Source: SAR202 cluster bacterium (GTDB taxonomy: Bacteria > Chloroflexota > Dehalococcoidia > Lucifugimonadales > UBA1123). Taken from it: a DNA stretch of 64,000 nt. Position 1 is the stretch's first letter. Each line of letters starts with the position of its first letter. Of this stretch, positions 24,914 to 42,913 are shown piece after piece. The position numbers were made by a program, and so were the translations under genes. Where the stretch lies: assembly GCA_030752795.1 (NCBI GenBank), contig JASMDM010000065.1:1-64000 (forward strand), written 5' to 3'. A model generated the notes under the pieces. That model saw nothing but the letters and a program-made list of their open reading frames with translations, was not told where the DNA came from and made no database searches.

Positions 24914-25486
24914 GTGTTTGGATCGCTGTTCGGTAAAAAGAAACGTCGCTCGAAGTCGAGTGAACCGTTGAAGGACGATTCGATCCGGTCGGCCGGCGTC
25001 GATGACGTGGTCGTAATTCCGGGCTTCTCGCCCACATTCGAAGACGCCTACTTCATCGTGGAGAGCAAGAACCGCCTGGAAAGCGCGTTCGGCAGGGCTT
25101 ACGAACTCATCGCCGTGGACGGAGATCGAAGGGTCTCCATCGAATGGCACGACGACAGCGAACTGCTGATCCTCGTTACCGAACATGACGAGACGATCGG
25201 TTTGTCCGAAATCGGGTTGGATGAGCAAACCCTCTCCGCATGGGACGACAACAAGTCGACGGAGAACTTCGTCGAGTTCGAAGACAAGAAGTACTTCTAC
25301 CGAACCAGCTACGAAGTTCTGTACTACAAAGACACCGTCGGCGCCGGCGAAGGTTTTTGGCTGTGGGACTTTGGCAACGAGGATGGAGAACACGGTGTCT
25401 CCGTGGTTAAATGGGAAGGAATGCCGTTTGAGGCCTATCAATCCGTGATAGTGTCGCCGCATATCGTGCGCGTGTATCGGAAGTAA
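24914..25486 (+). CDS. DUF4178-like protein
   Basis: 190 residues from GTG 24914. No signal peptide or membrane segment. The basic N terminus (GKKKRRSKS) is followed by a beta-rich body containing YELIAVDGDRRVSIEWHDD, WDDNKSTENFVEFEDKKYFY and GFWLWDFGNEDGEHGVSVVKW, resembling the DUF4178 domain with its W/Y-rich repeats. DUF4178 genes often sit next to DUF350 genes and polyamine genes; here DUF350 follows 26 bases later. Biochemical function is unknown. The domain call is by pattern and could be wrong. Confidence 0.6.
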   Translation: MFGSLFGKKKRRSKSSEPLKDDSIRSAGVDDVVVIPGFSPTFEDAYFIVESKNRLESAFGRAYELIAVDGDRRVSIEWHDDSELLILVTEHDETIGLSEIGLDEQTLSAWDDNKSTENFVEFEDKKYFYRTSYEVLYYKDTVGAGEGFWLWDFGNEDGEHGVSVVKWEGMPFEAYQSVIVSPHIVRVYRK

Positions 25487-25512
25487 CACCGGGCTGTAGA
25501 AGGGGAAGACAA

Positions 25513-26403
25513 ATGGCTGACGCATTCGTCGATGTTCTGGAGCAGATACCAAGAGGCCTGGTATACGTTGGGATGGGCATCGTCTTGCTCGTTTTCGCCA
25601 AGTTCGTCCAGGACTTTATCACTCCGTACAAAATCCAGGTGCAACTCAGGACCCACGACAACGTCGCTCTGGCGTTGAGCATCACCGGATACTATCTGGG
25701 GATCGTAATCGTCTTCCTCGGCGCAATGTACCAGCCGTTCGGATTGATCGTCGCCGACTCGAGCCTCGGCTTCACCGAGGCATACTGGGAGGATGTTCTC
25801 AGGGTTCTGGTGTACACCGCAATTGGCATTGTGGTTCTGAACGTCGCGCGTATGATAGTCGACCGGCTCGTGCTGTATAAGTTCAGCACCGAGGATGAGA
25901 TCATCAACGACCAAAATGTCGGCACAGGCGCCGTCGAGGCCGCCGTATACGTCTCAGTGGGCTTGGTAATCGCCGGCTCCATTTCAGGCGAAGGTGGAGG
26001 TCCCGAAACTTCTTTGGCGTTCCTCGCTTTGGGATTGGCGGCGCTGATCCTGTACACGCTGTTCTACGAATTCACCTCATCGTATGACTTGCACGACGAA
26101 ATCGAGAAGGACAACGCCGCCGTTGGGGTGGCGCTGGCAGGCAACCTTGTTGCAATCGGGATCGTCGTGTTCAAGTCGGTGTTCGGAGAATTCACCACTT
26201 GGGAAGAGGGCCTCGCGGGATTCCTGATCTACGCCGTGGTCGGATTTGCGCTGCTGTTCGTGGTTCGAAGAATTACCGACCTGGTGCTGTTTCCAAAGGT
26301 GTCCGTGGCACACGAGCTCGCCGTCGATCGTAATCTCGGCGTGGCGTTTATCGTCAGCGCCATGGCCATCAGCGTGAGCCTGATACTGTTCTTCGCGGTG
26401 TAG
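25513..26403 (+). CDS. DUF350-like membrane protein (two repeats)
   Basis: 296 residues, about eight hydrophobic segments. Two similar halves each begin with a hydrophobic helix and a charged loop with N-V-A-L-A-L (about residues 57-62, DNVALALSITGYYLGI) or N-A-A-V-G-V (DNAAVGVALAGNLVAIGIV), the DUF350 pattern. DUF350 proteins are inner-membrane proteins of unknown role found with DUF4178 and polyamine biosynthesis genes. A good ribosome site (GGGGAAG) precedes the ATG. Likely co-transcribed with the preceding gene. The operon with a polyamine-type decarboxylase starts at 38.4 kb on the other strand. Confidence 0.75.
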   Translation: MADAFVDVLEQIPRGLVYVGMGIVLLVFAKFVQDFITPYKIQVQLRTHDNVALALSITGYYLGIVIVFLGAMYQPFGLIVADSSLGFTEAYWEDVLRVLVYTAIGIVVLNVARMIVDRLVLYKFSTEDEIINDQNVGTGAVEAAVYVSVGLVIAGSISGEGGGPETSLAFLALGLAALILYTLFYEFTSSYDLHDEIEKDNAAVGVALAGNLVAIGIVVFKSVFGEFTTWEEGLAGFLIYAVVGFALLFVVRRITDLVLFPKVSVAHELAVDRNLGVAFIVSAMAISVSLILFFAV

Positions 26404-27130: not shown

Positions 27131-27964
27131 TTGATCAGACGTGTACTTTGGGCCGTGGCCGCCGCCCTCGTGATTATGTTGTCGACGGCTTGTGGCGGCT
27201 CCGAAGACGCGGAACAGTACTTCCTGGCAGGATTGGAATCCAAGAACAGGGCCAACCTGAAGATGCCATCGCCCAATACGACAAAGCCATCGAAGCAGAC
27301 TCCGAGTCCGCGCCGTCCTACCTGAACCGAGGCAACGCCTACGACTTGCTCGGCCAGGTCGAGCGAGCCATCAAGGATTACGATGAGGCGATCCGGATCG
27401 ATCCCGAGTTTGCGTTGGCGTACATGAGCCGAGGAATCGCGTTCAACAAACTCAGGCAGCCTATGTTGTCGCTCAAAGACCTTGACGAAACGATCAATCT
27501 CCAGCCTGATTTTGCGCCTGCGTACGTCAACTGAAGCAACGTTCACGCCGGCCTTGGAAACCACCAGAACGCGGTCAACGACCTGAACGATTCGATCAGG
27601 CTGGACCCACGAAACCCTCGACTTTTTCTGAGACGCGGATACAATTACGAACGGCTGGGTCAACCCTATCGAGCCGTCGATGACTACACCGAGAGTATCC
27701 GCATCGATCCCGAGTTTGCGATCGCGCTCATCAACCGCGGGATTCTGTATGTTGGCTTGGATGAGCTTGAGCTCGCGATTGACGACTTGAACCGAGCCAT
27801 CCGCCTTGACGCCCAATCGGGTCTCGCCTATGCCAATCGAGCCATCGCTTTGCCCATCTCAACCGAGATGTCGAGGCCGACGAGGATGTCGGACGCGCCG
27901 TGGAGCGGGGATCGACGGACCCAGCTTGAGAGCGGAAATCGAGCGAATCAGGTCGCTCAGATAG
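27131..27964 (+). pseudogene. TPR lipoprotein pseudogene
   Basis: A decayed paralogue of the intact gene at 28195-29028. From TTG 27131 it encodes a lipoprotein signal (VIMLSTACGG). It loses frame near 27236-27240 (one base missing), resumes as GQPEDAIAQYDKAIEADS and following TPR units, and meets TGA at 27532-27534 (YVN-stop-SNVHAGLG). The intact paralogue has CGA (Arg) there (YYNRSNVHAK). Two more frame changes near 27850 and 27911 restore the C-terminal LRAEIERIRSLR and stop TAG at 27962-27964. At least four lesions make a functional protein very unlikely. Confidence 0.85.
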
Positions 27965-28194
27965 AAAGAGATCGCGCTCCGGATTCCGTTCGCATCTGTT
28001 TCGGGGGCACAAATCGTCGATAGCGGCGACCGGAACTGTTCCGATCGGCGCCGATCGACTGCCTACCAATCTTCGGCTGGCTCGATTAGACTCATTTGAC
28101 GAAATACTGCGGATCCCCTTGGCCGAAGACGTCGGTTCAGAGCGCCCGATCTTGGCCAATGAGCCTTCTTTGGACCGCATCGGCGAGGTGACAT

Positions 28195-29028
28195 TTGAAA
28201 CGAATCTTACTCCTAACATTTGGCGCGGTGTTCGTGGCGATGTTCATCGTGTCGTGCGGAGGAGCCGGAGAAGCTGAATCGTTCTACAACGCGGGCGTGG
28301 AGATTCAGGACCTCGGATTTCCGAAAGAAGCTATCGAACAATACGACTTGGCCATCGAAGAAGACCCAGATTTCGCCGCCGCCTACATGAACCGCGGCAA
28401 CGCCTACGATGTACTGGGAGACCCGGAACGGGCAATCGCAGACTATGACGAAGCTATCAGGATCGAACCGCACTCTCTGGTGTACGTAAACAGAGGCATC
28501 GCCCACGATAGCTTGGGCCAATCGGAACTCGCGATCGAAGATTTCGACGAAGCCATCAGGCTCGACCCTGAACTCGCCGGCGCGTATTACAACCGAAGCA
28601 ACGTTCACGCCAAAGCGGGCGAATGGGAACTGGCCGTCGTGGACCTCGACAAGGTCATTGAACTCGATCCATTCGACGCCCCAGCGTACATGAACCGCGG
28701 TTTCGTCCACGACAACCTTGGCTTCGCCCAAGATGCATTGATGGACTATGATGAAGCGGTTCGCCTGGTTCCCCGATTCGCGATGGCTTATGTTAATCGA
28801 AGCTTGGTCTTGCTGGATCTTGGACAGAACGAAGCCGCGATTGATGACTTGACAGTGGCCATTCGGATCGACCCTGAGCTGACTCAGGCGTTCGCGACTC
28901 GTGTCATCGCTTACACGCTTATGGGCCGAGACGCCGACGCCCAGAAGGACCTCGAACGCCTGGCCGGGCTCGGATTCGATGGATCGATGCTCGACGCGGA
29001 AGTCGGCCGAATCCAAGCAGCGCGATGA
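28195..29028 (+). CDS. TPR-repeat lipoprotein
   Basis: 277 residues from TTG 28195. A lipoprotein signal peptide (MFIVSC, Cys about 21) is followed by about seven 34-residue tetratricopeptide repeats, each with A-x-x-x-Y-D-x-A-I-x-x-D-P-x-x-A-x-A-Y-x-N-R-G spacing (for example YMNRGNAYDVLGDPERAIADY). TPR arrays are protein-protein interaction scaffolds; anchored outside the membrane this one would organise envelope partners. Partner unknown. It is the intact member of a tandem duplication with the broken copy at 27131. It ends about 40 bases before the convergent end of the SecA operon. Confidence 0.88.
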   Translation: MKRILLLTFGAVFVAMFIVSCGGAGEAESFYNAGVEIQDLGFPKEAIEQYDLAIEEDPDFAAAYMNRGNAYDVLGDPERAIADYDEAIRIEPHSLVYVNRGIAHDSLGQSELAIEDFDEAIRLDPELAGAYYNRSNVHAKAGEWELAVVDLDKVIELDPFDAPAYMNRGFVHDNLGFAQDALMDYDEAVRLVPRFAMAYVNRSLVLLDLGQNEAAIDDLTVAIRIDPELTQAFATRVIAYTLMGRDADAQKDLERLAGLGFDGSMLDAEVGRIQAAR

Positions 29029-29067: not shown

Positions 29068-30051
29068 TTACGAAACCGCGTCTCTGGCGTTGCGGAGTTC
29101 AGCCTCGGCCTCGACGATATCCGTCAGTTCGTCGTCGTCGATCCAATCATGGTCGACCGCCGGTTCGATGATCCAGTTCAAGAAGTCATCATCGGGGATG
29201 CATTTTCGCCATTCGGACCTAAACCCATCGAGCGATCCATCGTAAAGCCGCAGAAGAAATACCGCCCGGTACGCGTCGATGCTCTGCGCATCGAAGACCT
29301 GCACCCTTAGGTCGAAGCCACTGCCCGCGGCGAACTCAACCGGCCGCTGGCCTCGTGACGGGCTCACATCGCTGAACGCGTCGAATGCGTCGATGTAGGC
29401 CTCGGCCTCGTCCATCAATTCGCCGATAAACGATCTGCCGTCCTCGCTGATTTCGAGCATGTTCCCGCCCGGCGACGGCGCGATCAGACCCCGGTCGACC
29501 AACGGATTCGCGACTCGGAGCAACTCCGCGTACAGATCGTCGCTGGGAGTCGTCGGCAATACGAAACGGTGCTTATCGAGGAAATAGATTAGCGCGCACG
29601 CCCGCATCCAGCCCGCGAATCCTTCACGGTCGCCGCCGTCGAGCTCGTACGCGGCTAACGCGTCGAATCGGTTCTCCAGCACCAACTGCAGCGACCGATC
29701 GACACTGGAAGACGCCTCTTGGCAGGACTCAGGCGCGACCAAACAGGACACCAATAGCGCCGGATCGACATCGGCCCCGGCGGGCGTTCGGAACGTCATC
29801 CGAGATGTCCCAGCCCTCCAGTGATCGAACATGCCCGACAGCATATCGTAGATTTCGGGGAGGTCCGGATACGTCCGCGTATCCAACCGCAAGCGAACCG
29901 CGTCGATATCAGCGACCGACGGCGGGAACAACTGATCGATCAGATCCACGACGCTCACGTTGGTCTCAACGCGTGGAACATCGATCGTGAAGGCCTCTTC
30001 GGGAGCCATGTCGCCCAAGGTCAGGTTGACCCGAAGCGTTCCTTGGGTCAT
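29068..30051 (-). CDS. Hypothetical protein, last gene of the SecA-like operon
   Basis: About 327 residues. I take the start as ATG 30051 because its ATGA overlaps the stop of the preceding gene (30048-30050), implying translational coupling; the longer frame upstream is the shadow of that gene. No signal peptide or membrane segment; acidic composition. The N-terminal 75 residues (GTLRVNLTLGDMAPEEAFTI onward) look like a beta-sheet domain of unknown family; the rest appears alpha-helical. No known catalytic motif seen. Its consistent place at the end of the operon suggests a role with the exported lipoprotein or SecA-like ATPase (inference). Confidence 0.7.
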   Translation of the reverse strand: MTQGTLRVNLTLGDMAPEEAFTIDVPRVETNVSVVDLIDQLFPPSVADIDAVRLRLDTRTYPDLPEIYDMLSGMFDHWRAGTSRMTFRTPAGADVDPALLVSCLVAPESCQEASSSVDRSLQLVLENRFDALAAYELDGGDREGFAGWMRACALIYFLDKHRFVLPTTPSDDLYAELLRVANPLVDRGLIAPSPGGNMLEISEDGRSFIGELMDEAEAYIDAFDAFSDVSPSRGQRPVEFAAGSGFDLRVQVFDAQSIDAYRAVFLLRLYDGSLDGFRSEWRKCIPDDDFLNWIIEPAVDHDWIDDDELTDIVEAEAELRNARDAVS

Positions 30052-30869
30052 CGCAGACTGGGTCGAACGAATCCGATCACACAAGCACCGCCGCCTCCAC
30101 CCCGGAACCCGCCGCTGCTGCGCGAGGTGCTTGACCGGGCGCTCGAGCCCCAACTGCTGCGAACGCCGGTTCCGCTGCTCTTGAACGAGCTCGACGACTT
30201 CTGCGAGCCCAGATACGAGTTGCGTGCGGTGCTCTTGGTGGCATTGGTGTATTTGGACCCCTGAAACGACTTCTGCTTGCTGAAGTAGGACGTGTTCTTG
30301 GACACCTGGCTGCGGTAGCCCGCCGAAGAGCGGTAGTTGGTGCGGTTGCTCTGCATCGAACCGTAGCGGTTGATTGGTGTCGAGTAGTAGTATCCGCGCG
30401 GCGAGAGTGCGGAAATGACCATGTACGTGAACAGGAAATTCCCGGCGCCGAAATTGTTTCGATAGTAGCCGTTCGAGCCGTGACCCCGGAGTTCGTGCTG
30501 CCGGTCGTGGTCCCGAACGATCGAGAACAGCATGTCGTCGTTCGCGTCCTCGATCTCCTTGCTGCCGTTCAGGTCTTCCCAGCCTTCGAGTGTCAGGTCT
30601 TCGCCGTCTTGTTGGGCTCGGATCAGGACGATTCCATCGCCCTCGTATATCTCGTTCACGCGTTTTTCGAAATCGGACGTGCCGTCGGATTTCTTGAACG
30701 CCTCTTGAACCTCGTCGAGATTGATGCGGCCCGCCGCGCCATCGGTCGCGGCCCAATCCTCATACGTGGGACCGGAGGCGCAAGCGGCCGCGGCCGGGGC
30801 GAGCAACGCCGCGCTGGCAAAGGCTGCCATCGAGGGACGGGTTAATTTGGTGCGTCGGCTCATCGTCAT
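30048..30869 (-). CDS. Ser/Gly-rich lipoprotein, probable substrate of the adjacent SecA-like ATPase
   Basis: About 273 residues. Signal peptide with Arg-Arg start (MSRRTKLT) and lipobox AAAAC (Cys about 30). After it comes DGAAGRINLDEVQEAFKKSD and an acidic loop rich in Asp/Asn (WEDLNGSKEIEDANDD), then YRNNFGAGNFLFTYMVISAL with Tyr-rich repeats. The last 90 residues are Ser/Thr/Lys/Tyr-rich and end SSGGFRGGGGG then Cys. The middle loosely resembles DUF4247-type proteins that occur with DUF4178/DUF350; not certain. A Ser-rich exported protein beside a second SecA recalls accessory Sec systems. Tail Gln/Lys/Ser residues could be sites for a transglutaminase-type enzyme (speculative). Confidence 0.7.
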   Translation of the reverse strand: MTMSRRTKLTRPSMAAFASAALLAPAAAACASGPTYEDWAATDGAAGRINLDEVQEAFKKSDGTSDFEKRVNEIYEGDGIVLIRAQQDGEDLTLEGWEDLNGSKEIEDANDDMLFSIVRDHDRQHELRGHGSNGYYRNNFGAGNFLFTYMVISALSPRGYYYSTPINRYGSMQSNRTNYRSSAGYRSQVSKNTSYFSKQKSFQGSKYTNATKSTARNSYLGSQKSSSSFKSSGTGVRSSWGSSARSSTSRSSGGFRGGGGGACVIGFVRPSLR

Positions 30870-30881
30870 TTCTCCCTTGCC

Positions 30882-33800
30882 CTATGCGAGCAGGCTCAGA
30901 ATCTCCTCCGAGACCGGTGTATGTGACTCCGCGATCGAGGCGTTGTGCTCCTCGAAATGCATGGTCAGGATCAAAGGCATTGCTTCGTCCCACGCCGCGG
31001 TCATCAACTCGCGATACGCGTCGCGTGCGAACTCCGCAAAGTGCGTGGCCGCCATCCGGTGTGTCGGTCCGGCGATCGCCGCGCTGAGCGCCACGTCACG
31101 CAGATGAGACAAGTGGCCGGGCCATAGTTGGTCCGCCGTGCCGACCAGGATCGATCGAGCCCGGTCGGCGTGCGTCTCGTCGCCCAGCGCCGAGCGACCG
31201 TCGGCGAGGCGATCAGTCAACATTTCGGACAACGCGATCGATATCGCGACCTCCCCGGCCCCAAATAAGCCGACGCAGTCGATGCCGAGCTCGCTCCAGA
31301 GGTGCTCAACCAATCCTTCGAACACCGGCAAATAGCCTATCTCAGGCAGATCGCTGAACCACCGCGATACGAACCTCTCGGACCATGTTCGGGCCATGTC
31401 GTCGCACGAGTGCCGCCACGTCGCGTCGCTGAGGATGCTTTGCCTGGCTCGATAGTACGACAGAGTTTGATTCTCGAGCACCGCCGTGTAATCACGGGCC
31501 GATTCGTGGGCGGCGCGCTGGTTTGCTGCCGCCTCGTCTTGTAGGGTCCGAAGGAGCCTGCTCACCCTCGAGCTAGTGCTGCGCCGTCGCAAAGCTTTGG
31601 ATCGAGTCTCCGCGGTCGGCGGCCCTTCGACTGGCTCAGGGCGAACGGATTGGGGCGGGGTCGCGTTCGCTGCGATTTCAGGGCGAACGGCGTGTGAGGA
31701 GCTCTGGATCGCGGCGCCGTCAGACCCGCGGTAACCATTGATGGCTTCTGTCATGAGGCCCGGGCGAACCGTCACCGCTTTGTTTCCGTTCGTGGTGAGC
31801 CTGTCGAACCACCCGCCCCACGCCGAGCACCGCCAGAATAGGTGACCCGACCCTGGCGCCCGCGAGACAGCCAGGCGATTGAGCTGCGGAGCTTGACGGC
31901 TGAACGCGATCGGGTCTTCCTGGACGGAGACCAATATCCTCGAGGCGCCGAACGCCCCTTGGCGACCCGCTCTGCCTCTGAGCTGCCGTTCGGCGCGCGC
32001 GCTCTGGTGCAGGGCAACCCCGATGACGCTCAGTCCGAGCCCGAAGTCGATTGCGTCGCAATCTTCGGAGCCTTCAGCCGTGCAAAGGCTGCGAGAAATG
32101 CGGACCGTGTTCGATTCCGAACCTCCCCACGCACGCGACACCCTGAACCCGGCATTGTCAGCGGCGTCAGTGATGATCCCTGCCTCTTCGCGTGTGTCAC
32201 AGCGTAACTCGATCGTCGCTTCGGGTTGTGCTGCGAGCACGCTTGAGATTCGGTCCAAGCAAGCGGCGATGATTCGGCTGTCGAGACCGTCTTCAATGAT
32301 GATGTCGGTTCCGCGTCCGGCCATATTCGTAGCAACGGTCACGGCGCCAAGTCGCCCAGCCCCGCGCACGATCTGCGCTTCCCAGTCGCTCGTCACCGCG
32401 TTCAGCAATCGGTGTTCGATGCCCGCTCGGTGCAGTTGATCGCTGATTTCCTCGGATTGCCGGACCGACACCGTGCCAATCAAAACGGGCCTCCCGATCG
32501 AACGCCACTTGTCGACTTGCTCGATCAAGGCGGTCTGCACATATTCGTTTGTGGCATGGATCTCCGGAACATGGTCGACTCGACGCTTCGGATGCGTCGG
32601 CGCCACTTTCACCGTCTCGAGATCGTAGGTTCGGTCGAACTCGTCCTGCGCTTCGCTCGCGGTGCCGGTCAGGCCGCTCACGCGCTCGTAGCGGCTAATA
32701 AATCCCGAAACGGTAATCTGGGCAATCGTCTCAGCTTCCGGCCTCGGCTCCAGACCTTCCTTGGCCTCCAGGGCGGCTTGCAGGCCGTGCAGGTACCTGT
32801 TGTCCGGCAACAGCCGACCGTTCATCGGATCGACGATGACGACTCGGCCGTCAGAGACGATATAGTCGATGTCGCGTTTGAACAGCGTGTACGCCCGAAG
32901 CAACTGATGCGCCATGCCGAGGGTCGCGTCCCATTGGCTTTGGTCTGCTTCAGCGCGATTGAAATTCGCCGTCGTCACGTCGGTCAGAACCGGTCGGACC
33001 CACGGGTCGTCCATAAATTTGGATGGCGAACTGTCCGACCGCCCGAGCTCGTGCGCGATGAACTCTTCGCCTCGTTGGGTAAACCGGACCGAGCTCCTCG
33101 CCGAGTCGGTGACAAAGTAGAAGCGGTCTTCGTACCCGCCGACGCCCAGGTCATCGTGCATGTCGTCAAGCTTCGCCATCAGTTGGTGGCGAGCCGTGCC
33201 GTGTCTTGCGACCGCGTCTCTGAGGACTTTGCTCTCCGGATCAGCCGCGTAAAGCATGGCGAGGTCCTCGGCTACGTCGGCGTATTCAGAGCCGGCGAAC
33301 AACACGTTGGCCTCCGCCAGCCGGACCTGCTTGTCGTGTAGCGCCAGGAGTCGCGCGATGGCGTCGATGGCCGATTGGAAGCCGCCCAGGTCGTCCGCCT
33401 GTTCCCCCGAGATGATCAGCGGGGTCTGGTCCTGGTCGATCAGAACGTGGTCGGCTTCGTCCACGATGACGGTGTCCAGCGGGCCCTGAACGGGCCGGGC
33501 CGGCGGCAGCATGAGGTTGTCCCTCAGGTAGTCGAATCCGATCTCTCTGGCCGTGGCGTAGACGATCTCACGCGCATACGCCAGCCTCCGCTCGTCGTCT
33601 TCCATCGACGACAGAATGACGTCGATGCCGAGTCCGAGCGACGCGTAGACGGGCGAAAGCCATTCCGCGTCTCTCGATGCCAGGTAGTCGTTGGCCGTGA
33701 CCACGTGGACGGATCGACCTGCGGCTGCCGCGACGATCGCGGCCAGTCCGGCAGCGACGGTCTTGCCTTCGCCGGCATCCATCTCGACGACAACGCGTCG

Positions 33801-34370
33801 GAGCAGCAGCGCGGCTGTGATCATCTGCTCGCACGTCGGCGTAAAGCGCAGGATATCGTCCGGGTCCAACGCGCGTATCGCGTCGTAGAACGACGCTGGC
33901 AGCGAGACGTCAGCAGGTTGGACGGTCCCGAGCATCGAGCGTGCCCGAACAACGCCCCGCACGATCTCACGTTCGTCTAACGACGCTTTTAATGCGTCGA
34001 TGGTCCGACCCACATCGGTTGTCGATTCGATGACGCTGTCCGCCAGTTCGAAGCATTTCCGAATCGCCTCCGGGACCGATTCGTCGTCGAATACTCGCCA
34101 CGCGCCCAGGCGGCGCTCCATGGCGACGCTCGCAGCCGCAATCGCGCGCGACAGCGAAGCGGCGGACTCGGGCTGCATCGTCGCGTTTTGTAACTCCGCT
34201 CGGAGCTCAGAATCCGACAAGCGGTGGCAGTCGATTTGACCGGCGAAGTCGGCGCATTCCGTCGCCCATCGTAGCAATCGTCTGTCCCGGGACGAGGTCA
34301 TATCTCGCAACCAGCCGAAGAGCCCTGTTGCTGATTGAACGCGACCTGCGATTTGGCGGAGCGTGCTCAT
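30882..34370 (-). CDS. Divergent SecA-like translocase ATPase (accessory SecA type)
   Basis: About 1162 residues from ATG 34370 (AGGA upstream); a GTG at 34388 overlapping the previous gene is also possible. Visible SecA landmarks: Walker A EMDAGEGKT (canonical MRTGEGKT varied), TANDYLASRDAEW, DEAD-type DEADHVLIDQDQTPLIISG, GLTGTASEAQDEFDRTYDL, NMAGRGTDI and QLRGRAGRQG. It pumps proteins across the membrane with ATP. Two additions: about 85 residues between NMAGRGTDI and GLSVIG, longer than in standard SecA, and about 75 residues (roughly 850-925) encoded by a REPIN-like repeat pair. The C-terminal zinc/SecB tail is absent. Inference: dedicated to a special substrate, not the housekeeping SecA. 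Confidence 0.85.
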   Translation of the reverse strand: MSTLRQIAGRVQSATGLFGWLRDMTSSRDRRLLRWATECADFAGQIDCHRLSDSELRAELQNATMQPESAASLSRAIAAASVAMERRLGAWRVFDDESVPEAIRKCFELADSVIESTTDVGRTIDALKASLDEREIVRGVVRARSMLGTVQPADVSLPASFYDAIRALDPDDILRFTPTCEQMITAALLLRRVVVEMDAGEGKTVAAGLAAIVAAAAGRSVHVVTANDYLASRDAEWLSPVYASLGLGIDVILSSMEDDERRLAYAREIVYATAREIGFDYLRDNLMLPPARPVQGPLDTVIVDEADHVLIDQDQTPLIISGEQADDLGGFQSAIDAIARLLALHDKQVRLAEANVLFAGSEYADVAEDLAMLYAADPESKVLRDAVARHGTARHQLMAKLDDMHDDLGVGGYEDRFYFVTDSARSSVRFTQRGEEFIAHELGRSDSSPSKFMDDPWVRPVLTDVTTANFNRAEADQSQWDATLGMAHQLLRAYTLFKRDIDYIVSDGRVVIVDPMNGRLLPDNRYLHGLQAALEAKEGLEPRPEAETIAQITVSGFISRYERVSGLTGTASEAQDEFDRTYDLETVKVAPTHPKRRVDHVPEIHATNEYVQTALIEQVDKWRSIGRPVLIGTVSVRQSEEISDQLHRAGIEHRLLNAVTSDWEAQIVRGAGRLGAVTVATNMAGRGTDIIIEDGLDSRIIAACLDRISSVLAAQPEATIELRCDTREEAGIITDAADNAGFRVSRAWGGSESNTVRISRSLCTAEGSEDCDAIDFGLGLSVIGVALHQSARAERQLRGRAGRQGAFGASRILVSVQEDPIAFSRQAPQLNRLAVSRAPGSGHLFWRCSAWGGWFDRLTTNGNKAVTVRPGLMTEAINGYRGSDGAAIQSSSHAVRPEIAANATPPQSVRPEPVEGPPTAETRSKALRRRSTSSRVSRLLRTLQDEAAANQRAAHESARDYTAVLENQTLSYYRARQSILSDATWRHSCDDMARTWSERFVSRWFSDLPEIGYLPVFEGLVEHLWSELGIDCVGLFGAGEVAISIALSEMLTDRLADGRSALGDETHADRARSILVGTADQLWPGHLSHLRDVALSAAIAGPTHRMAATHFAEFARDAYRELMTAAWDEAMPLILTMHFEEHNASIAESHTPVSEEILSLLA
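31626..31808. repeat. REPIN-like inverted repeat pair inside the SecA-like gene
   Basis: Arms at 31626-31646 and 31788-31808 are the same sequence family as 1001-1021 and 1087-1107. On the coding strand they read as the peptides WFDRLTTNG and VRPEPVEGPP. The interval is a low-complexity stretch that keeps the SecA frame open. It falls between the last motor motif and the helical scaffold, a region that standard SecA proteins have much shorter. Confidence 0.7.
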
Positions 34371-34380
34371 TGTCGTCCTG

Positions 34381-35721
34381 TTATCCACTGCCGTTGCCTG
34401 AAGCGTTCGCTGCTGTCGCCACGCCCGGAGTCGGCTTCAACGGGCGACGCACCGAGAACGGCGCCATGCCCGCCCGCAGAGCAGCCATCACGCCGGCCGC
34501 CTCCCAGTAGTTGTCGACGACGTAGAGCCGGCCCGTGTCCCAGGGCAATCGGGCAAGATCGTTGCGCATCACGTTTCGGTTTTCGCGTACCGCGATGACC
34601 GGGATGCCCTGTTCGAGCGCGGCCAGGGTCGGAAGTCCGATGCAACCGTCCGGGATCACAAGACACGACACGTCCGCGGCGGTGATCACGCCGGGCAGCT
34701 TCATAGCATCTCGGTCCGAAACGATTCGCGGCGAGTGTTGCAAGCCCTTGAGGACGCACTGCAAAAACGTGTTCGATATTACCTCTGCGGCCATGCGAGG
34801 GTCGACGACGCCCGGGTCCACGTTGGCAACTTCGTCCGACTCCATCATCGGCGCGTGGGCCGTTGGAACGTCGTATATGCACGACGCCGTGTGCGTGAGC
34901 AAAGCTTCGACGCCGCCCCACGGGTTGATCATCTCTCCGCCGCTGGTGAAGTAATCCATGTGATACGGCAACGGGACGTCGATCACAGACGCGATGGCGA
35001 CCGCGTCGAAGCTCCCCCGCCACTGCTCGAACGCGTCCATCAGCCCCTCGAAGCCTTCGACCGCTCCAGTGGCGCGTCCCGACTCCGAGTAGTGGCTAAT
35101 TAAGCGAAGTGGGCGATCCAAGACTGCCGTGCCTGCGATGTCCAGACCGTACGTCGCGTGCGCGGCGTTGACGGCGTTCAATGTCGAAGTCACCCACTTG
35201 GGATCATGGCCCGCGTCGATAGCGACTAGCACGCGGTTCGAGCGCATCTTGCGTAGCCCTGCCGTGCCCATCATCAGCCGCGACAGCACGCTGCCCTCGA
35301 CGTACAAACCGTTGTCCGGCATCTCGTTGATGTCGGACGCGTTGACGACGTTCGGGTGCGTGATTAGAGTGTCGCAGACCTGAGCCAGCATTCGCGCCAC
35401 GGGTGTCGCATCGCCTGAATGCCCGCCAATCTCCGCTCCGATCCCGGTTGGCACGATGAAGACGGCGGTGAACGAGTCCGTGTTCTCCCACGGGCGTTTC
35501 GAGAAATCGAATATCGAGGACATCGACGGCAGACTTTCGGCGCCGGTTCGTTCGATCGATCCTACTTCGCAGGCAAATCTGCGGTCGTCCGATTCGCTGA
35601 CCACGAACCGAACCGGTAGCCGGTCGTCGCCGAGCGCGTCTAGCACGCCGGTCCGCGCCCGATCGAGGACGTTGCCGCCCCATGGGTTCGGGATCGTCAG
35701 TTCTCGTTCAGCTAACCGCAA
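34381..35721 (-). CDS. DUF3326-like protein
   Basis: 446 residues. The central DUF3326 pattern is clear: FIVPTGIGAEIGGHSGDATPVARMLAQVCDTLITHPNVV (split here as two motifs, PTGIGAEIGG and LITHPNVVNASD), MPDNGLYVEGSVLSRLM and late NRNVMRNDLARLPW. DUF3326 proteins occur in cyanobacteria, plants and scattered bacteria; function is undescribed. No signal or membrane segment, so likely cytoplasmic. It overlaps the upstream PLP decarboxylase gene by 14 bases and abuts the SecA-like gene, so co-expression is nearly certain. Confidence 0.8.
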   Translation of the reverse strand: MRLAERELTIPNPWGGNVLDRARTGVLDALGDDRLPVRFVVSESDDRRFACEVGSIERTGAESLPSMSSIFDFSKRPWENTDSFTAVFIVPTGIGAEIGGHSGDATPVARMLAQVCDTLITHPNVVNASDINEMPDNGLYVEGSVLSRLMMGTAGLRKMRSNRVLVAIDAGHDPKWVTSTLNAVNAAHATYGLDIAGTAVLDRPLRLISHYSESGRATGAVEGFEGLMDAFEQWRGSFDAVAIASVIDVPLPYHMDYFTSGGEMINPWGGVEALLTHTASCIYDVPTAHAPMMESDEVANVDPGVVDPRMAAEVISNTFLQCVLKGLQHSPRIVSDRDAMKLPGVITAADVSCLVIPDGCIGLPTLAALEQGIPVIAVRENRNVMRNDLARLPWDTGRLYVVDNYWEAAGVMAALRAGMAPFSVRRPLKPTPGVATAANASGNGSG

Positions 35722-36895
35722 TCTGGCTCGCTCCGTTCTTGGCGGCGAATTCGTCGAATCCCGATGACTGGAGAAGCTTCAGCTCCCCCGACTCGAGCAT
35801 CGCGTAGGCGTCCGGGAGATTGATGCCGTTGAACGTGTGAGCCTTGGGCTGTGTGTACGCGCCAGCGCCCAAGATGGCTACCCGGCTGCCGGGCTCCAAC
35901 GGTTCTTCGAACCGGTAGTCTCCCAGAATATCGCCCGCCAGACACGATCTGCCAGCCAGGATATACCTATGTGACCCATCGGGCGTGTAGTCGAGCACAT
36001 CGGGTTCATACTGGTACTCGAACACCTCGGGCATGTGGTTCACGGTGGTATCGAGGACCGCCACTTCCACGCCGCCGCTGTCGAATACGTCGAGGACCGT
36101 GCTGACGATGAAACCGGCGTCGGCGACGAAAGCCGCGCCGGGCTCGATGAAGATCTCGATTTCACGGTCGCGGCTCAACAGCGAACCTGTCTCGACGAGC
36201 GGTCCGATGTCGGTCGCCTCGCCGAACGTGTATCCGCCTCCGAGATTCAGCCAGGCCATCCGATCTATGAGTGTCCCCAGCCGTTCGTCGATGGCCGAAG
36301 CCGTTGAGAACAGGTCCAGGAGGTCGTCGGACTCGCAGTTGGTGTGAAGCAGTAACCCTTGCGCCATGCCGGACACGCCTCTCGAACCGAGCTCCGCGTC
36401 GAGAATCTGCTCAATCGGCGTTCCGAGTTTCGAATGTCTTCGGCAAGGGTCGTACCGCTCGTCGGAGACGAACGATATGCCGGGGTTCAATCGTATGCCA
36501 ACGCCGGTCTCAGCCGGAGCTTCCGGTCCGTATCGCTCCAATTGACGGATGGAGTTGAACGTGATGTAGTCGCACGTCCGCGAGATCTCGACGAACTCGT
36601 GGTCGGCCACCGCCACGCCGTAGTAGTGTACGGTTCCGGCATCGCCCAACGCCTGCCGTGCGAGTCTGACCTCGAAGGGCGAGCTGGCGGTGAACCCGGT
36701 TACGTGGCCAGCCAGTTGCTCGATGACCCATGAGAAGGTGCAGGGCTTCATGGCGTACAAAAGCGATATGCCCGCGGCGTCCGCCGCAGACCGAATCCGT
36801 CGTGCGGAACTGGAAAGTTCAGCCTGCGAAAACACCAGCGCGGGCGTTTCCGATACCGCGGCCATGGCCGCACGGATTTCAGCAGTGTCTACCAT
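35708..36895 (-). CDS. PLP-dependent amino-acid decarboxylase, carboxynorspermidine decarboxylase-like
   Basis: About 395 residues from ATG 36895. Fold type III (alanine racemase-like) decarboxylase of the DAP/Orn/NspC group. The PLP lysine is in LLYAMKPC (about residue 48). NspC-like features are LNPGISFVSDERYDPCRRHSKLG, LLLHTNCES and the C-terminal catalytic Cys-containing LAGRSCLAGD with GAYTQPKAHTFNG. NspC relatives decarboxylate carboxy(nor)spermidine to make polyamines; a meso-diaminopimelate or related substrate is an alternative. No dehydrogenase partner of the usual polyamine route lies next to it. It follows the transglutaminase-like gene by about 30 bases. Confidence 0.85.
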   Translation of the reverse strand: MVDTAEIRAAMAAVSETPALVFSQAELSSSARRIRSAADAAGISLLYAMKPCTFSWVIEQLAGHVTGFTASSPFEVRLARQALGDAGTVHYYGVAVADHEFVEISRTCDYITFNSIRQLERYGPEAPAETGVGIRLNPGISFVSDERYDPCRRHSKLGTPIEQILDAELGSRGVSGMAQGLLLHTNCESDDLLDLFSTASAIDERLGTLIDRMAWLNLGGGYTFGEATDIGPLVETGSLLSRDREIEIFIEPGAAFVADAGFIVSTVLDVFDSGGVEVAVLDTTVNHMPEVFEYQYEPDVLDYTPDGSHRYILAGRSCLAGDILGDYRFEEPLEPGSRVAILGAGAYTQPKAHTFNGINLPDAYAMLESGELKLLQSSGFDEFAAKNGASQIAVS

Positions 36896-36925
36896 CAATA
36901 CTCCGAGCCTGATTAGACCTGTAAT

Positions 36926-38389
36926 TTACCACACTGTCGGTTTCAGGTTCTTGCGAAGCCCAATCAAAATTAGGCCTGCCTGGTGACCCACGCCTTCGAA
37001 ATGGTCGTATCTTGCCAGCAGATGGTCTTGACTGTCGAGAATGGCCCCGGCCGCGTCGGGCGCTCGGTCGCGTAAGTCTTGGCCCAGCGGCGAGTCGAGC
37101 GACCACGACGGCGACGCCTCGAGCGTCAGCCGTTCCGGGATACACGCTTCGGCGTATTGCCCTCTGATCGACTCGTACTCCTGTTCATCCTCGTATACGA
37201 CCGGAGTCACGAACACCGATTCATCGATGTAGAGTCCGAGCTCGTTGTCGAACACCTGGACCAGGTCGATCTCCGGCACGAAGTTCTCCATTGCGTAGTA
37301 CAGGTCCTCGACCAGACCTTGATCCGTGCGGTGGTAGTAGAAATCTTCCCGAACTTCCGCCATCCGGACGGGCAGGGGTTTCTTGTTCGAGTACCCCAAA
37401 TATTCATCGGCGGCGTTACCTTGCTCGAAAAGAAACGGGATGTTCCCGTTGGTTGCGTCCACAAGCAACTCGACGCCGTCCAGGTCGTAGACCAGCGCGA
37501 CGTGCTGCCAATAGCGCATGTGCCGCTTCGAAAACGAGTAGTCGAACGTGTCCAGGATCTGGCGTAGCGCATCCTCGGGCGGCGGATCGGGGATGTTCGG
37601 TCCTGAGAGCACGTAACTCGACTCGATGCCGAGGTTGTCGGTTAGAAATTTGAGCGCCTGTACTTTTTCGGAGCAAATGCCGCCCCGGCCCTCAGAGATG
37701 TTGATCACGGTCTCATCGCCGGTTTTGTAGCGCAATCGATCACCGGTGTATCGGGAGTAGTTCTCGAAATCGGCACGCCAAATGCGCAGCGCAAGGCTTC
37801 GAATCAACTCGACACGGTCGTCGCGCGATTCGAGCGCCAAGATTTTTTCGCGTTCGGACGCGGGATGAGCAAGCGCGATCGAGTCGGCCACGAAAGCTTC
37901 GAAAATCGATCGTTGCCGCGACCATTTGCGTCGATGGAAACCGGCCCAGTTTCGATCGTAACCCGCTGGACCGCGATCCAGCATGAGCGCGATGAGTTCG
38001 ATGGCGACCCCGTCTGCCATCACTCGCGCAGCCCTCGGAACCTCGGCACGGTTCAGAGCTCGACCGGATTGCAGAATCGACGAGTTGGGTATCGGATGGG
38101 TCAGTTCGCCAGAGTCGGTCAGTGCATAGCTGGAATCTTGGAGCGCCAGAAGCGCCTGTGCGGACGTGGCGGACATGCGGCCCAGTTCGACCATTTCGTC
38201 CACCGCGCAAGCGCGAAGATATTTGTCGACGAGATTGCCGGTTGTCAGCCCTGCGTCTTCAGGCTCGATGACGATAGCGCAAGTGCGGTCGGTGAGAGCG
38301 TCAGTCATCTGCAGGAAGACCGACGCCCGTTCGCCGAAACGTCCCCGAACCTCGCGCAACGTCGATTCTTCTGAGAACTGAAGCTCCAT
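36926..38389 (-). CDS. Transglutaminase-like cysteine enzyme, first gene of the operon
   Basis: 487 residues. A papain/transglutaminase-like catalytic triad can be read: Cys239 in GGICSEKVQAL, His296 in RYWQHVALV and Asp311 in LLVDATNG, in the order and spacing of the transglutaminase-like superfamily. The N-terminal 200 residues are helical and not assigned. No signal peptide. Such enzymes cross-link or amidate Gln side chains with amines, or act as proteases/amidases. Being first in an operon with a polyamine-type decarboxylase suggests an amine substrate (inference). Start ATG 38389 is preceded by a TATAAT and an inverted repeat. Confidence 0.75.
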   Translation of the reverse strand: MELQFSEESTLREVRGRFGERASVFLQMTDALTDRTCAIVIEPEDAGLTTGNLVDKYLRACAVDEMVELGRMSATSAQALLALQDSSYALTDSGELTHPIPNSSILQSGRALNRAEVPRAARVMADGVAIELIALMLDRGPAGYDRNWAGFHRRKWSRQRSIFEAFVADSIALAHPASEREKILALESRDDRVELIRSLALRIWRADFENYSRYTGDRLRYKTGDETVINISEGRGGICSEKVQALKFLTDNLGIESSYVLSGPNIPDPPPEDALRQILDTFDYSFSKRHMRYWQHVALVYDLDGVELLVDATNGNIPFLFEQGNAADEYLGYSNKKPLPVRMAEVREDFYYHRTDQGLVEDLYYAMENFVPEIDLVQVFDNELGLYIDESVFVTPVVYEDEQEYESIRGQYAEACIPERLTLEASPSWSLDSPLGQDLRDRAPDAAGAILDSQDHLLARYDHFEGVGHQAGLILIGLRKNLKPTVW

Positions 38390-38713: not shown

Positions 38714-38995
38714 TTAGGCTGACTTAGTTTCGTTCGTGCGGGCCCGACACGAAGGGCAACCGCAGTGTTTAGGCTCTCGGAGCATGTCGGGGAAGATTAG
38801 CTGAACCATCTCTTTTTCGGTCAGCCTGAACGATGTTCCGATCGCGACGAATTCGACCAGCCGGTTGTTTTTGTCTTCTCGTTCGGCTTCGGACAACTCT
38901 TCGCCGTGGACCAGATTTCTATTCGCATAGCCTTTGAGCACTTTGAGGTGCTCGGCAACCGTATCCCGGGGATCGCTCAGCGTCTCATGTGTCAT
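38714..38995 (-). CDS. Small hypothetical protein with cysteine cluster
   Basis: About 93 residues from ATG 38995 (AGGA five bases upstream). Charged and helical (VAEHLKVLKGYANRNLVHGEELSEAEREDKN) with a C-terminal HCGCPSCRAR that could bind a metal ion. No signal peptide. It lies upstream of the SecA-like operon promoter on the same strand and could be separately transcribed. Family not recognised. Confidence 0.55.
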   Translation of the reverse strand: MTHETLSDPRDTVAEHLKVLKGYANRNLVHGEELSEAEREDKNNRLVEFVAIGTSFRLTEKEMVQLIFPDMLREPKHCGCPSCRARTNETKSA

Positions 38996-39413
38996 GTTCC
39001 TGCTCTTGCTTGTCTCGTGCCGTTTCACCGAGAATCGTTCCCAGGTCCCTCGATAAGAGCTAGATACCCAATCGCCAAGCTCGCCGAAACCGGAACCGTG
39101 GGTGGGACCCCTAAGGATCGTCTGGATACATCCCTGTATTTTTCTCACCGTACATGTACTTAGCGTTCCGGGAATCGACGCCTAAGTAAGCGGCAAGTCG
39201 GCGAGAAAATGGAGCCCTTGTGCGTGTCAGGCTCGCCCCACTCGACGAAATGCCGGACCGACGGTATCGAACGCCTGCGTCAGAGGAACATGTGAATCTG
39301 GCGCTACGCGCCGATTGGGGTTAGGCTGACAATGTCTCGGCAGGGCTGACGCCTGGAAACCCGATCCTCAGTGCGGCGATGAGTCGCGTCGAGTCCGACC
39401 GGACAACGTCAAT
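38996..39413. other. Gene-free stretch
   Basis: 418 bases between two small minus-strand genes. I see no frame, RNA or strong promoter. No DnaA boxes were noticed although the rpmH cluster is near. Confidence 0.4.
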
Positions 39414-39850: not shown

Positions 39851-39943
39851 TTCCTCGAACTTCCCACGCCGCGAGGGTGTTGTTCCGTCGGAACCACGTA
39901 ACCGCTCGGCCTGGTGTCGAGGGGCGTATTTGGCCGGGTGTCC

Positions 39944-40276
39944 ATGCAGAAAGAACGCCGTCTGAGAAAGTCGAGCGATTTTGCTGCTGCGCGACGACGA
40001 GGCCGGAGCTGGAGCGACCCTCTGCTCGTGTTGTTGGCCCGACGAAACGGTTCGGACGTTAGTCGAATCGGTTTCGCCGTCGGGCGTCGAGTTGGCAATG
40101 CGGTGATCAGAAACCGTATCAAACGCCGCCTGCGGGCTTTGGCGCATTCGGCCGACATCGAAAATGGATGGGACCTGGTGTTCATCGCGAGGAAAGATGC
40201 GGCGACTTCGAATTTTCCGAACCTTTCGAGGTCCGTGTTCAAACTTCTCAAACGTGCCCGGTTGGTGAGGTCGTGA
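39944..40276 (+). CDS. rnpA: Ribonuclease P protein component
   Basis: About 110 residues from ATG 39944 (MQKERRLRKSSDF); an in-frame GTG at 39914 would add ten residues. The RnpA signature RIGFAVGRRVGNAVIRNRIK is clear. It binds RNase P RNA to process tRNA 5' ends. It lies about 90 bases after rpmH, as in many bacteria. Confidence 0.95.
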   Translation: MQKERRLRKSSDFAAARRRGRSWSDPLLVLLARRNGSDVSRIGFAVGRRVGNAVIRNRIKRRLRALAHSADIENGWDLVFIARKDAATSNFPNLSRSVFKLLKRARLVRS

Positions 40277-40316
40277 ATTTTCGTACGCCGCCAGGCGAGA
40301 TTCGGCAGAATTCGAA

Positions 40317-40526
40317 ATGAAAAAACTGGCCCTCGGCGCGATAAAATTGTACAAATTGGCCGTGTCGCCGTATTGGCCAGGGACTTGCAGGCATTCGCCC
40401 ACATGTTCCGCCTACGCGGCCGAGGCGATCGAAAAACACGGCGCGGGCAAAGGGGTCTGGCTCACCGCCGGAAGACTGGGTCGATGCCGCCCGTTCGGCA
40501 CGAGCGGATACGATCCAGTGCCGTAA
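40317..40526 (+). CDS. yidD: Membrane protein insertion efficiency factor YidD
   Basis: 69 residues of the YidD family: LYKLAVSPYWPGTCRHSPTCSAYAAEAIEKHG with the three conserved cysteines, followed by RLGRCRPFG. Thought to sit at the membrane and assist YidC-dependent insertion. Position between rnpA and yidC fits, though a lipoprotein gene intervenes here. Confidence 0.95.
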   Translation: MKKLALGAIKLYKLAVSPYWPGTCRHSPTCSAYAAEAIEKHGAGKGVWLTAGRLGRCRPFGTSGYDPVP

Positions 40527-40815
40527 TCGGCGCGCGTCGCCGACCGTGTTGCGGGGCACTCCCAATTTGCGGGCCCCAAGTGAGTAGCGGCACAAAGATA
40601 ACCGACAGATGTCGTGCGGGTAAACGAACTATCCGCTAAGCTATCCGATGAAGAAAGATCGACAACTGACGCGTCGGTCCATAGAAATGGCGATTCAGAC
40701 GCCAATTGAAAAACGGGCCCATGAATCCGGTCTGAAACAAGCTGACCACGATCAAGAATAAATCGTTGTGGGGCAACTACTGCATTCACCCCACTGAAAT
40801 GTTGGACACTATCGG

Positions 40816-41976
40816 ATGTTGAAAACGTCTCGACGCGGCTCGCGGAAAACAGGAATCATTGTCGCTGCAGTCGTTCTGGCCATGCTGGCCGGCGCCTGCA
40901 GCCGCATCAGCAACCCACAAGGATGGTCCGGAGTTGCGACCTCCGGCGACACGCTCGTTGTCGGTACGATGGAAGGGCAGCTCATCGCCGTCAACAAGGA
41001 CGACGCTTCCACGTTGTGGCGCGTCGATCTCAGAGGCGAAGAAGAGCAACGGGCGATCTACGGCAGTCCGGTCATCGACGGCGACACGGTTTACGCTGGC
41101 GGCTACGATGGTACGTTGTACGCGTTCGATCTGCAGGGCATTCCCGCTCGTTGGGAGGACACGCGACTGGGCGATCGCATCGTCGGCGGGCCAGTTGTGG
41201 CGGGAGATGCGATTATCGTCGCATCAATCTCGCTAGCCGACGATGGCGGTGACGAAGGCAAACTGTGGTCCATCGACGCTGAGACCGGCGATAATCTGTG
41301 GGACTATTCCACGCCGGGACCGATCTGGACGACGCCCGCGGTAGCCGACGGGCTCGTATACTTCGGCACACTGAATAAGCGCGTCTACGCAGTCGATCTG
41401 TCAGACGGCCAGAAGGTATGGGACTTCGAAACAGGTGGCGGAGTCGTTGGCACGCCCCTGGTTTCTGGCGGGCGAGTGTATTTTGGCGCCTTCGACAGCG
41501 TCTTCTACGCGTTGGACGCCAAGACCGGCGCCGAAGCCTGGACGTTCACAGGGGCCGATAAATGGTTCTGGGGCGGCGCCATCGAGCTCGGAAACCTCAT
41601 ACTTGCCCCTTCGCTTGACGGCAGCCTATACGCCCTGGATTCAGCGACCGGCTTGCCTCAATGGAAGTTCGAGACCGAAGGCACGATCGTCGGTTCCCCT
41701 GTCGTCATCGGCGAACTTATCGCGGTTCCAATCGCGGACGGCGGCGAATCGAAGATATCGCTGATAGAATTTAACGGCAGCCCGCGCGAGGCGTGCAAGG
41801 TCGGTGAAGACGTTCGGACGCCGCTGTTCGCGGATGGAGAACTGGTATACTTCGGCGCAACCAACCATTCGATTTGGGCGCTGCGGATCAAGCAAAACGG
41901 CAACCCGGACGAAGAGTGGGTTTACTTTACAGATCAAGACGATCCGATCCCACGGGATCGTAGCAAGGCATGTTGA
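40816..41976 (+). CDS. PQQ-type beta-propeller lipoprotein (BamB-like)
   Basis: 386 residues. Signal peptide with lipobox (LAGAC, Cys about 28), then about seven to eight W-x-x-x blade repeats: LVVGTMEGQLIAVNKDDAS, VYAGGYDGTLYAFDLQG, VYFGTLNKRVYAVDLSDGQ, VYFGAFDSVFYALDAKTGA. BamB-type propellers help assemble outer-membrane proteins, but related PQQ-like repeats also serve other envelope roles. It interrupts the usual yidD-yidC adjacency and lies 16 bases before yidC, so it may be co-expressed with membrane-insertion genes. Whether this organism has an outer membrane is unknown, so BamB function is doubtful. Confidence 0.85.
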   Translation: MLKTSRRGSRKTGIIVAAVVLAMLAGACSRISNPQGWSGVATSGDTLVVGTMEGQLIAVNKDDASTLWRVDLRGEEEQRAIYGSPVIDGDTVYAGGYDGTLYAFDLQGIPARWEDTRLGDRIVGGPVVAGDAIIVASISLADDGGDEGKLWSIDAETGDNLWDYSTPGPIWTTPAVADGLVYFGTLNKRVYAVDLSDGQKVWDFETGGGVVGTPLVSGGRVYFGAFDSVFYALDAKTGAEAWTFTGADKWFWGGAIELGNLILAPSLDGSLYALDSATGLPQWKFETEGTIVGSPVVIGELIAVPIADGGESKISLIEFNGSPREACKVGEDVRTPLFADGELVYFGATNHSIWALRIKQNGNPDEEWVYFTDQDDPIPRDRSKAC

Positions 41977-41992
41977 GGACGGCTAGAACACA

Positions 41993-42913
41993 TTGGATTT
42001 CATAGTCGACACTTGGAACTTGGCAATCATCCAGCCGATGATCAACGGCTTGGTATTGTTGTACAGCCTGTTTTTCAGCAACTTCGGCATCGCCGTGATT
42101 GCATTCACGCTGGTCGTCAGAATGATAATGATCCCGTTGACGATCAAACAGAGCCGTCAGATCAAGTCGATGGGCGCCCTTCAGCCGCTGATGAAGGAGA
42201 TCCAGGCAAAGCACAAGAACGACCGGCAACGAGCCTCCCAAGAGACAATGCGCCTATACAAAGACCATGGCGTCAATCCTCTGGGCTGCCTCGGTCCGAT
42301 GTTCATACAATTCCCAATATGGATCGGTCTCTACCAGGCCATCCTGCAAACGGTGCCTTCCAACCCCGAGAGCCTCGTTGGGTTGTCTCGGCATCTGTAT
42401 GGATGGATTCCGCTGGTGCACAAGGTAGTGCCGATCGACAGCTCGTTCCTCTGGATGGACTTGGCGAAACCCGACCCATCGCCGTTCATCATGCCAATTC
42501 TGGTTGGCGGGTCGATGTTCATAATGCAGAAGATGTCGAGCATGCCCGCGGCGGACGACCGGCAGGCGTCGACGAATCGTATGATGTTGTGGATGATGCC
42601 TTTGATGTTCGGCTTCTTCACGCTGAATTTTCCGAGTGGGCTTGCGGTGTACTGGGTAGTTTCGAACGTGATTGGGGTGGCGATTCAAGGGTTCATCACC
42701 GGATGGGATCCTCTGAAATCTCTGTTGGCCTTCGGGCGCGCCACCGAGCAGGTCGAGACGGTTGCCACGGCGCCGTCGTTGGCTCTACCTGCCGAGGAGA
42801 CGGTAATCGATGACGGAAATAACGATAACGGCCAAGACGGTGGACGAAGCAATCGAGCTCGCCCTAAAGGAACTCGACGCAGAGCGCGCAAAGGTCGAAA
42901 TAGACGTCGTTAG
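41993..42913 (+). CDS. yidC: Membrane protein insertase YidC/Oxa1 family
   Basis: 306 residues from TTG 41993. Five membrane segments typical of the short YidC form of Gram-positives and Chloroflexi: MINGLVLLYSLFFSNFGIAVIA region, the LGCLGPMFIQFPIWIGLYQAI loop, IMPILVGGSMF, and WMMPLMFGFFTLNFPSGLAVYW. The cytosolic arginine of the hydrophilic groove is probably in VVRMIMIPL. No large periplasmic domain. The last 35 residues are strongly basic (RRRARKGRNRRR) and are encoded in the region overlapping the start of jag. Confidence 0.95.
   Translation: MDFIVDTWNLAIIQPMINGLVLLYSLFFSNFGIAVIAFTLVVRMIMIPLTIKQSRQIKSMGALQPLMKEIQAKHKNDRQRASQETMRLYKDHGVNPLGCLGPMFIQFPIWIGLYQAILQTVPSNPESLVGLSRHLYGWIPLVHKVVPIDSSFLWMDLAKPDPSPFIMPILVGGSMFIMQKMSSMPAADDRQASTNRMMLWMMPLMFGFFTLNFPSGLAVYWVVSNVIGVAIQGFITGWDPLKSLLAFGRATEQVETVATAPSLALPAEETVIDDGNNDNGQDGGRSNRARPKGTRRRARKGRNRRR

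Follow-up and report, generated by a model that had tools for sequence, protein, structure and literature searches.

A conserved Chloroflexota operon with a predicted amide-forming acyltransferase, an accessory SecA paralog and a Ser/Gly-rich lipoprotein resembles PspA/DUF350/DUF4178 gene groups

In the PspA operons described by Ravi et al. 2024 (PMC11237479), PspA is accompanied by DUF350 and DUF4178, a new lipoprotein, a K+ channel and enzymes of the ATP-grasp or spermidine-synthase-like kind. The E. coli operon yjfIJKLMC encodes a PspA homologue, DUF350, the Ser/Gly-rich lipoprotein-like YjfM and YjfC, annotated as a peptide-spermidine ligase, an activity that PMC12568646 credits to Pederick et al. 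2023. A third relevant arrangement is the accessory Sec system, in which a dedicated SecA serves a Ser-rich substrate (PMC5578698). Here we analyse a six-gene operon from a SAR202 cluster bacterium (GCA_030752795.1, contig JASMDM010000065.1, positions 1–64,000; this 64,000-nt stretch is the window), which encodes a Cys-His-Asp enzyme, a pyridoxal phosphate (PLP)-dependent decarboxylase, a DUF3326 protein, a SecA paralog, a Ser/Gly-rich lipoprotein and a conserved protein, ORF6, with DUF4178 and DUF350 genes nearby. We put at about even chances the reading that SAR202-type Chloroflexota have here their own version of the PspA/DUF350/DUF4178 envelope-maintenance operons, with an amide-conjugating enzyme and the Ser/Gly-rich lipoprotein.

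The open reading frame (ORF) coordinates confirm six tightly spaced genes on the minus strand, 38389 to 29068, with the overlaps and the ATGA coupling described in a first-pass annotation of the window, and a neighbourhood search showed that the gene set is conserved in relatives. In a species-level genome collection the Cys-His-Asp enzyme occurs in 42 loci beyond the window, all labelled Chloroflexota or Dehalococcoidia/SAR202, while a phylum-wide sample of 261 genomes gave no enzyme in any of the other 260, one extra decarboxylase–DUF3326 pair and one extra DUF3326. Linkage was counted by edge-aware profile annotation of the 43 loci (window plus 42), 32 of which, the window included, have at least 9.9 kb downstream; these 32 contain SecA in 29, the lipoprotein in 28, ORF6 in 28, DUF350 in 25, DUF3326 in 23, DUF4178 in 19, the decarboxylase in 18 and a K+ channel in 12. 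Across a co-occurrence sample of 60 relatives, the enzyme is present in 16, and enzyme and lipoprotein accompany each other in 15/16 cases each way (Fisher p=5e-12; 3e-6 at family level), the two exceptions being genomes that are 84% (G042) and 77% (G045) complete. The decarboxylase and DUF3326 are found in an identical set of 11 of the 60, all enzyme-bearing, and adjoin on one strand in 20/20 loci having both (19 by script, L064 by its ORF coordinates). ORF6 is confined to enzyme-bearing genomes (11/60).

The recurrence of this gene set across 42 other loci and in genomes of patchy distribution is more than chance. One could still suppose that the genes have no shared function and are neighbours by common ancestry in one clade whose genomes rearrange slowly, since every holder belongs to one phylum and mostly to Dehalococcoidia. 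However, gene order varies, presence is matched but patchy (8/41 families), most other genomes of the order have none of the set, and pieces move as blocks, so that we give this explanation very little chance. Detached blocks far from the enzyme are seen in G003 (decarboxylase-DUF3326-ligase-SecA-lipoprotein-DUF350-DUF4178) and in G028 (decarboxylase-DUF3326-DUF350-DUF4178 alone), and G016 has a block of C3-channel-ligase-GNAT-Usp-SecA-lipoprotein detached from the enzyme; such movement argues against mere synteny. The ligase, a PaaK-like AMP-binding coenzyme A (CoA) ligase (10/43 loci), and C3, a shorter gene possibly related to it (12/43), are frequent additions in relatives, together with genes for a GNAT, a Usp protein and an RCK-domain K+ channel.

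The DUF4178–DUF350 pair that the first-pass annotation placed 4 kb away is real, lies 2.7 kb from the operon end in convergent orientation (24914–26403), and its linkage extends to PspA–PspAA. Just past DUF4178, PspA and PspAA are encoded in 13 relatives' loci (for the L051 copies, Pfam gives PspA_IM30 at E=1.3e-27 and PspAA at E=3.4e-33), and PspA was found in 16/16 relatives that have the enzyme versus 8/44 of the others (p=5e-9; 1e-4 at family level). Because the gene set travels with PspA it looks like an envelope-maintenance system, and the PaaK-like ligase, K+ channel and PspA–PspAA seen in relatives shift its setting to envelope stress. It shares with the operons of Ravi et al. 2024 the joint presence of DUF350 and DUF4178, a lipoprotein, PspA (with PspAA) nearby, a K+ channel in some members and possibly an amine-related enzyme, the candidate here being by sequence a decarboxylase of the NspC clade. 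It differs in having a conjugating enzyme that resembles arylamine N-acyltransferases (NATs) and transglutaminases where theirs have ATP-grasp or spermidine-synthase-like enzymes, an NspC-like decarboxylase with DUF3326 in place of an S-adenosylmethionine decarboxylase, and an added SecA paralog and PaaK-like ligase; no CesT/Tir-type gene was apparent among the inspected conserved neighbour clusters, although no profile search was aimed at this family. With yjfIJKLMC the common elements are a PspA homologue, DUF350, a Ser/Gly-rich lipoprotein and, on the yjf side, a peptide-spermidine ligase. Unlike in E. coli, no ATP-grasp, DUF2170 or DUF2491 gene is seen among the conserved neighbours here, and SecA, DUF3326 and the decarboxylase lie outside E. 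coli's operon. By analogy, the system would work like the PspA/DUF350/DUF4178 group that includes yjfIJKLMC, and is not a plain member of it.

The conjugating role is assigned to the Cys-His-Asp enzyme, whose proposed triad (Cys239, His296, Asp311) is indeed invariant in 42 aligned sequences. Its earlier description as transglutaminase-like holds at the level of the superfamily; the fold is closest to arylamine N-acyltransferases, and the protein matches no Pfam or NCBIfam family at E<=0.1. The best PDB folds found by Foldseek for its AlphaFold2 model (mean predicted local distance difference test score, pLDDT, 90.9) are arylamine N-acyltransferases (E 1.3e-4 to 8e-4), followed more weakly by geldanamycin amide synthase (E 1.7e-3) and transglutaminase 3 (E 0.05). 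As these matches are partial, with TM-scores of 0.2–0.45, the fold speaks for the superfamily and for the chemistry (a thioester, then transfer of the acyl group to an amine) and does not place the protein in a family. The G-G-x-C-x-E motif around the Cys and the His-Asp spacing of 15 also look NAT-like. The enzyme is like arylamine N-acyltransferases and the GdmF amide synthase in fold, triad, His-Asp spacing and the motif around the Cys, and unlike them in its extra N-terminal domain, its roughly 200 additional residues, its operon context and the lack of a profile match. Triad and predicted fold together support membership of the transglutaminase/NAT superfamily, and the enzyme is predicted to be a cytosolic amide-forming acyltransferase.

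The decarboxylase was first described as carboxynorspermidine-type and not as an enzyme of diaminopimelate/lysine synthesis. Its NCBIfam score is 252 bits for NspC, under the TIGR01047 cut-off of 409, versus 89 bits for LysA, and a profile comparison with PDB chains gave 331 bits for NspC and 87 bits for LysA; judged by these scores, its nearest characterised clade is NspC. A LysA role was rejected, given this far greater closeness to NspC and a separate LysA-type frame elsewhere in the window genome (C67:204726). The Vibrio/Campylobacter route relies on carboxynorspermidine dehydrogenase. The C-terminal domain of that dehydrogenase (Sacchrp_dh_C, PF16653) was detected in 0/15 genomes, with a Bacteroides positive control matched, and a spermidine synthase was present in 14/15 genomes tested. 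The substrate of the decarboxylase therefore probably does not come from that route, and canonical carboxynorspermidine synthesis looks absent.

Its constant partner, DUF3326, was recognised in the profile search that left the Cys-His-Asp enzyme unmatched. DUF3326 has no solved structural relative by sequence, and a fold search with its model (pLDDT 79) gave no match at E<=0.001, so we claim no function from its fold. Two other settings are more informative: in the Chloroflexota genome G168 (6.3–6.8 Mb) a DUF3326 gene is flanked by large nonribosomal peptide synthetase (NRPS) genes (L099:8753-10078), and in G207, of another class, a decarboxylase–DUF3326 pair without the enzyme is followed by a membrane protein of no named family (L098:8768-11357). 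These settings suggest that DUF3326 may act in small-molecule amine or natural-product chemistry. They also fit the proposal that the decarboxylase, DUF3326, PaaK-like ligase, GNAT and NAT-like enzyme form a small-molecule pathway for an N-acylated amine, perhaps a polyamine conjugate or lipid-like amide working on a membrane or channel, with SecA and the lipoprotein as a separate export function. The closeness of the enzyme's fold to arylamine N-acyltransferases and geldanamycin amide synthase, and the ligase in relatives, agree with such a pathway, but the ligase and C3 are missing in the window and at most loci, and SecA and the lipoprotein follow the enzyme almost perfectly. We regard the pathway as possible, though on the doubtful side.

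The SecA paralog is divergent, as first noted: it retains the ATPase motifs GEGKT (Walker A, 34/34 sequences) and DEAD (31/34), is without the SEC-C zinc tail, and exists besides a housekeeping SecA of 913 residues with a zinc tail on contig C3 of the window genome. It falls below the NCBIfam SecA2 cut-offs (385 versus 1085 bits for the best SecA2 model, 384 versus 725 for the mycobacterial one). In the lipoprotein, the lipobox residue Cys30 is invariant in an alignment of 26, and the Ser-rich tail contains Gln188 (26/26), an invariant Asn192 and Gln199 (24/26). With a second SecA encoded beside modifying enzymes and a Ser-rich protein for export, the locus recalls streptococcal accessory Sec (SecA2/SecY2/Asp with serine-rich repeat glycoproteins), from which it differs in that the presumed cargo is a short lipoprotein; among the conserved neighbours no SecY2, Asp or glycosyltransferase gene was found, with no profile search aimed at these.

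The tail glutamines bear on the original hypothesis in its strictest form, in which a true transglutaminase cross-links a decarboxylase-made polyamine to lipoprotein Gln and SecA then exports the product. An invariant triad, the conserved Gln188 and Gln199, the tight co-occurrence of enzyme and lipoprotein and the precedent of the reported E. coli peptide-spermidine ligase speak for it. Nevertheless, the predicted fold is nearer to NAT than to transglutaminase, 5/16 enzyme genomes are without the decarboxylase and no dehydrogenase that makes carboxynorspermidine was detected, which leaves this version decidedly improbable. The operon itself is real and conserved, and the first-pass hypothesis is supported in part, as none of its three refuting conditions (no conservation, a variable triad, a decarboxylase of lysine synthesis) held; what is least certain is the transfer of a polyamine to glutamine.

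Under the envelope-maintenance reading, an acyl thioester would form on Cys239 of the cytosolic enzyme, as its triad and fold suggest, and the acyl group would pass to an amine. Where the genes are present, this amine may come from the NspC-like decarboxylase with DUF3326, whose pairing is observed, and the acyl donor may be supplied in many relatives by the PaaK-like CoA ligase, whose gene is found there. Adjacency and co-occurrence suggest that the dedicated SecA would drive the neighbouring Ser/Gly-rich lipoprotein through SecYEG, and PspA operon precedents suggest that the membrane is where the lipoprotein, DUF350, DUF4178, PspA–PspAA and, in some relatives, the K+ channel act. Most exposed to doubt is the target of conjugation: modification of the lipoprotein is plausible from its sequence, but that it is the target, the alternative being a small molecule, is a tentative proposal on which the balance tilts to the negative. 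It is unlikely, if less so than the cross-linking scheme, that the NAT/transglutaminase-like enzyme attaches an amine or acyl-amine to the lipoprotein in the cytosol, and that the lipoprotein can be exported only by its own SecA and feeds PspA-controlled membrane protection.

Several observations, besides the partial fold matches given above, weigh against the envelope-maintenance reading. In the window pspA is physically unlinked to the operon, the PspA–PspAA pair of this genome being on another contig (C62), and in the window and its congener C3 and the PaaK-like ligase are absent from the operon. Both the decarboxylase and DUF3326 are missing from 5/16 enzyme-bearing genomes, so the amine that they would make is not obligatory for the core. 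Homology of the lipoprotein to E. coli YjfM/DUF1190 was rejected (hhalign probability 1.2%, no Pfam match). Finally, the genomes are related metagenome-assembled genomes, so the counts are not independent events.

The first-pass annotation knew of no system combining these genes, and our searches of the searchable literature (DUF3326; the decarboxylase/transglutaminase/SecA set; SAR202 with DUF350, transglutaminase, SecA2 and PspA) found no description of one. SAR202-type Chloroflexota, an abundant group, have hardly been brought into culture, and to our knowledge no function has been established for DUF3326, DUF350, DUF4178 or ORF6. The constant pairing of DUF3326 with the decarboxylase, and the association of both with a predicted amide-forming enzyme, SecA, the lipoprotein and PspA, gives each of these unknowns a testable role. 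The connection of amine metabolism to PspA envelope stress would extend to a phylum, an enzyme class and an export motor unreported for it in the searchable literature, and conjugation-coupled export, if true, would parallel the accessory Sec pathway while using a modification other than a sugar.

Table 1. Coordinates of the operon genes and the DUF4178–DUF350 pair in the window
Feature	Coordinates	Strand	Evidence
Cys-His-Asp enzyme, transglutaminase/NAT superfamily (supported by model)	36926..38389	-	ORF, triad C239/H296/D311, AlphaFold2 fold
NspC-clade PLP alanine-racemase-fold decarboxylase	35708..36898	-	Profile scores NspC >> LysA
DUF3326 protein	34381..35721	-	Pfam PF11805 E=4.6e-97
Accessory SecA paralog, 1168 aa	30882..34388	-	SecA_DEAD E=4.5e-70
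Ser/Gly-rich lipoprotein, AAC lipobox, Cys30	30048..30869	-	Alignment of 26
ORF6, 327 aa, conserved, no named family	29068..30051	-	Alignment of 24
DUF350 (YjfL-type) membrane protein	25513..26403	+	PF03994 E=1.9e-53
DUF4178 protein, DUF350 partner	24914..25486	+	PF13785 E=3.2e-4, below cut-off

Pfam assigns DUF3326, the SecA domains and the Orn/DAP/Arg decarboxylase domains in the operon, and no family to the Cys-His-Asp enzyme, the lipoprotein or ORF6; the DUF4178 match is stronger in the L036 orthologue (PF13785 E=2.3e-10). The decarboxylase has an ATG at 36895 with GGAG ahead of the start, its frame overlaps that of DUF3326 by 14 bp, the DUF3326 and SecA frames overlap by 8 bp (GTGGATAA), a 12-bp gap separates SecA from the lipoprotein gene, and the ATGA junction joins the lipoprotein to ORF6, an arrangement that suggests translational coupling. 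The conserved start of ORF6 is the ATG at 30051, since relatives align only from there onward, and a TTG start at 30756 (562 residues) was discarded as spurious. Kinship of ORF6 with the N-terminal domain of the enzyme, which look alike by eye, was also rejected (profile comparison probability 1.7%).

Within the SecA frame, two copies of a palindromic element, CTTCGACAGGCTCAG, at 31625–31809 encode a VRPEPVEGP insert near residue 915; the window holds 6 copies against 0.15 expected, the others being at 26667, 1000, 1094 and 3085. Two TPR-repeat ORFs (27148–29028, plus strand) separate the operon end from DUF350 in this genus, and ORF6 and DUF350 directly abut in most other relatives. In three family members (G002:C34, G003:C1, G007:C3), speD-like and speE genes lie about 9–12 kb from DUF4178, a proximity within family f1 that we judged weak synteny, speE being on contig C54 in the window genome. 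Upstream of the operon and divergent from it are rnpA, a gene for a BamB-like PQQ repeat lipoprotein, yidC and jag (39914–43445, plus strand), and this rnpA-side junction is common to six loci (the window, L033, L034, L056, L065 and L068). Also upstream, a short conserved ORF of no known family (38714–39148, minus strand) carries a CGCPSCR motif and occurs in four genomes. A further lipoprotein-like gene (20268–21158, plus strand) contains Gly-Pro-Pro repeats of collagen type (PF01391, E=5.6e-11) and resembles a gene in L101 (5297–6160, plus strand).

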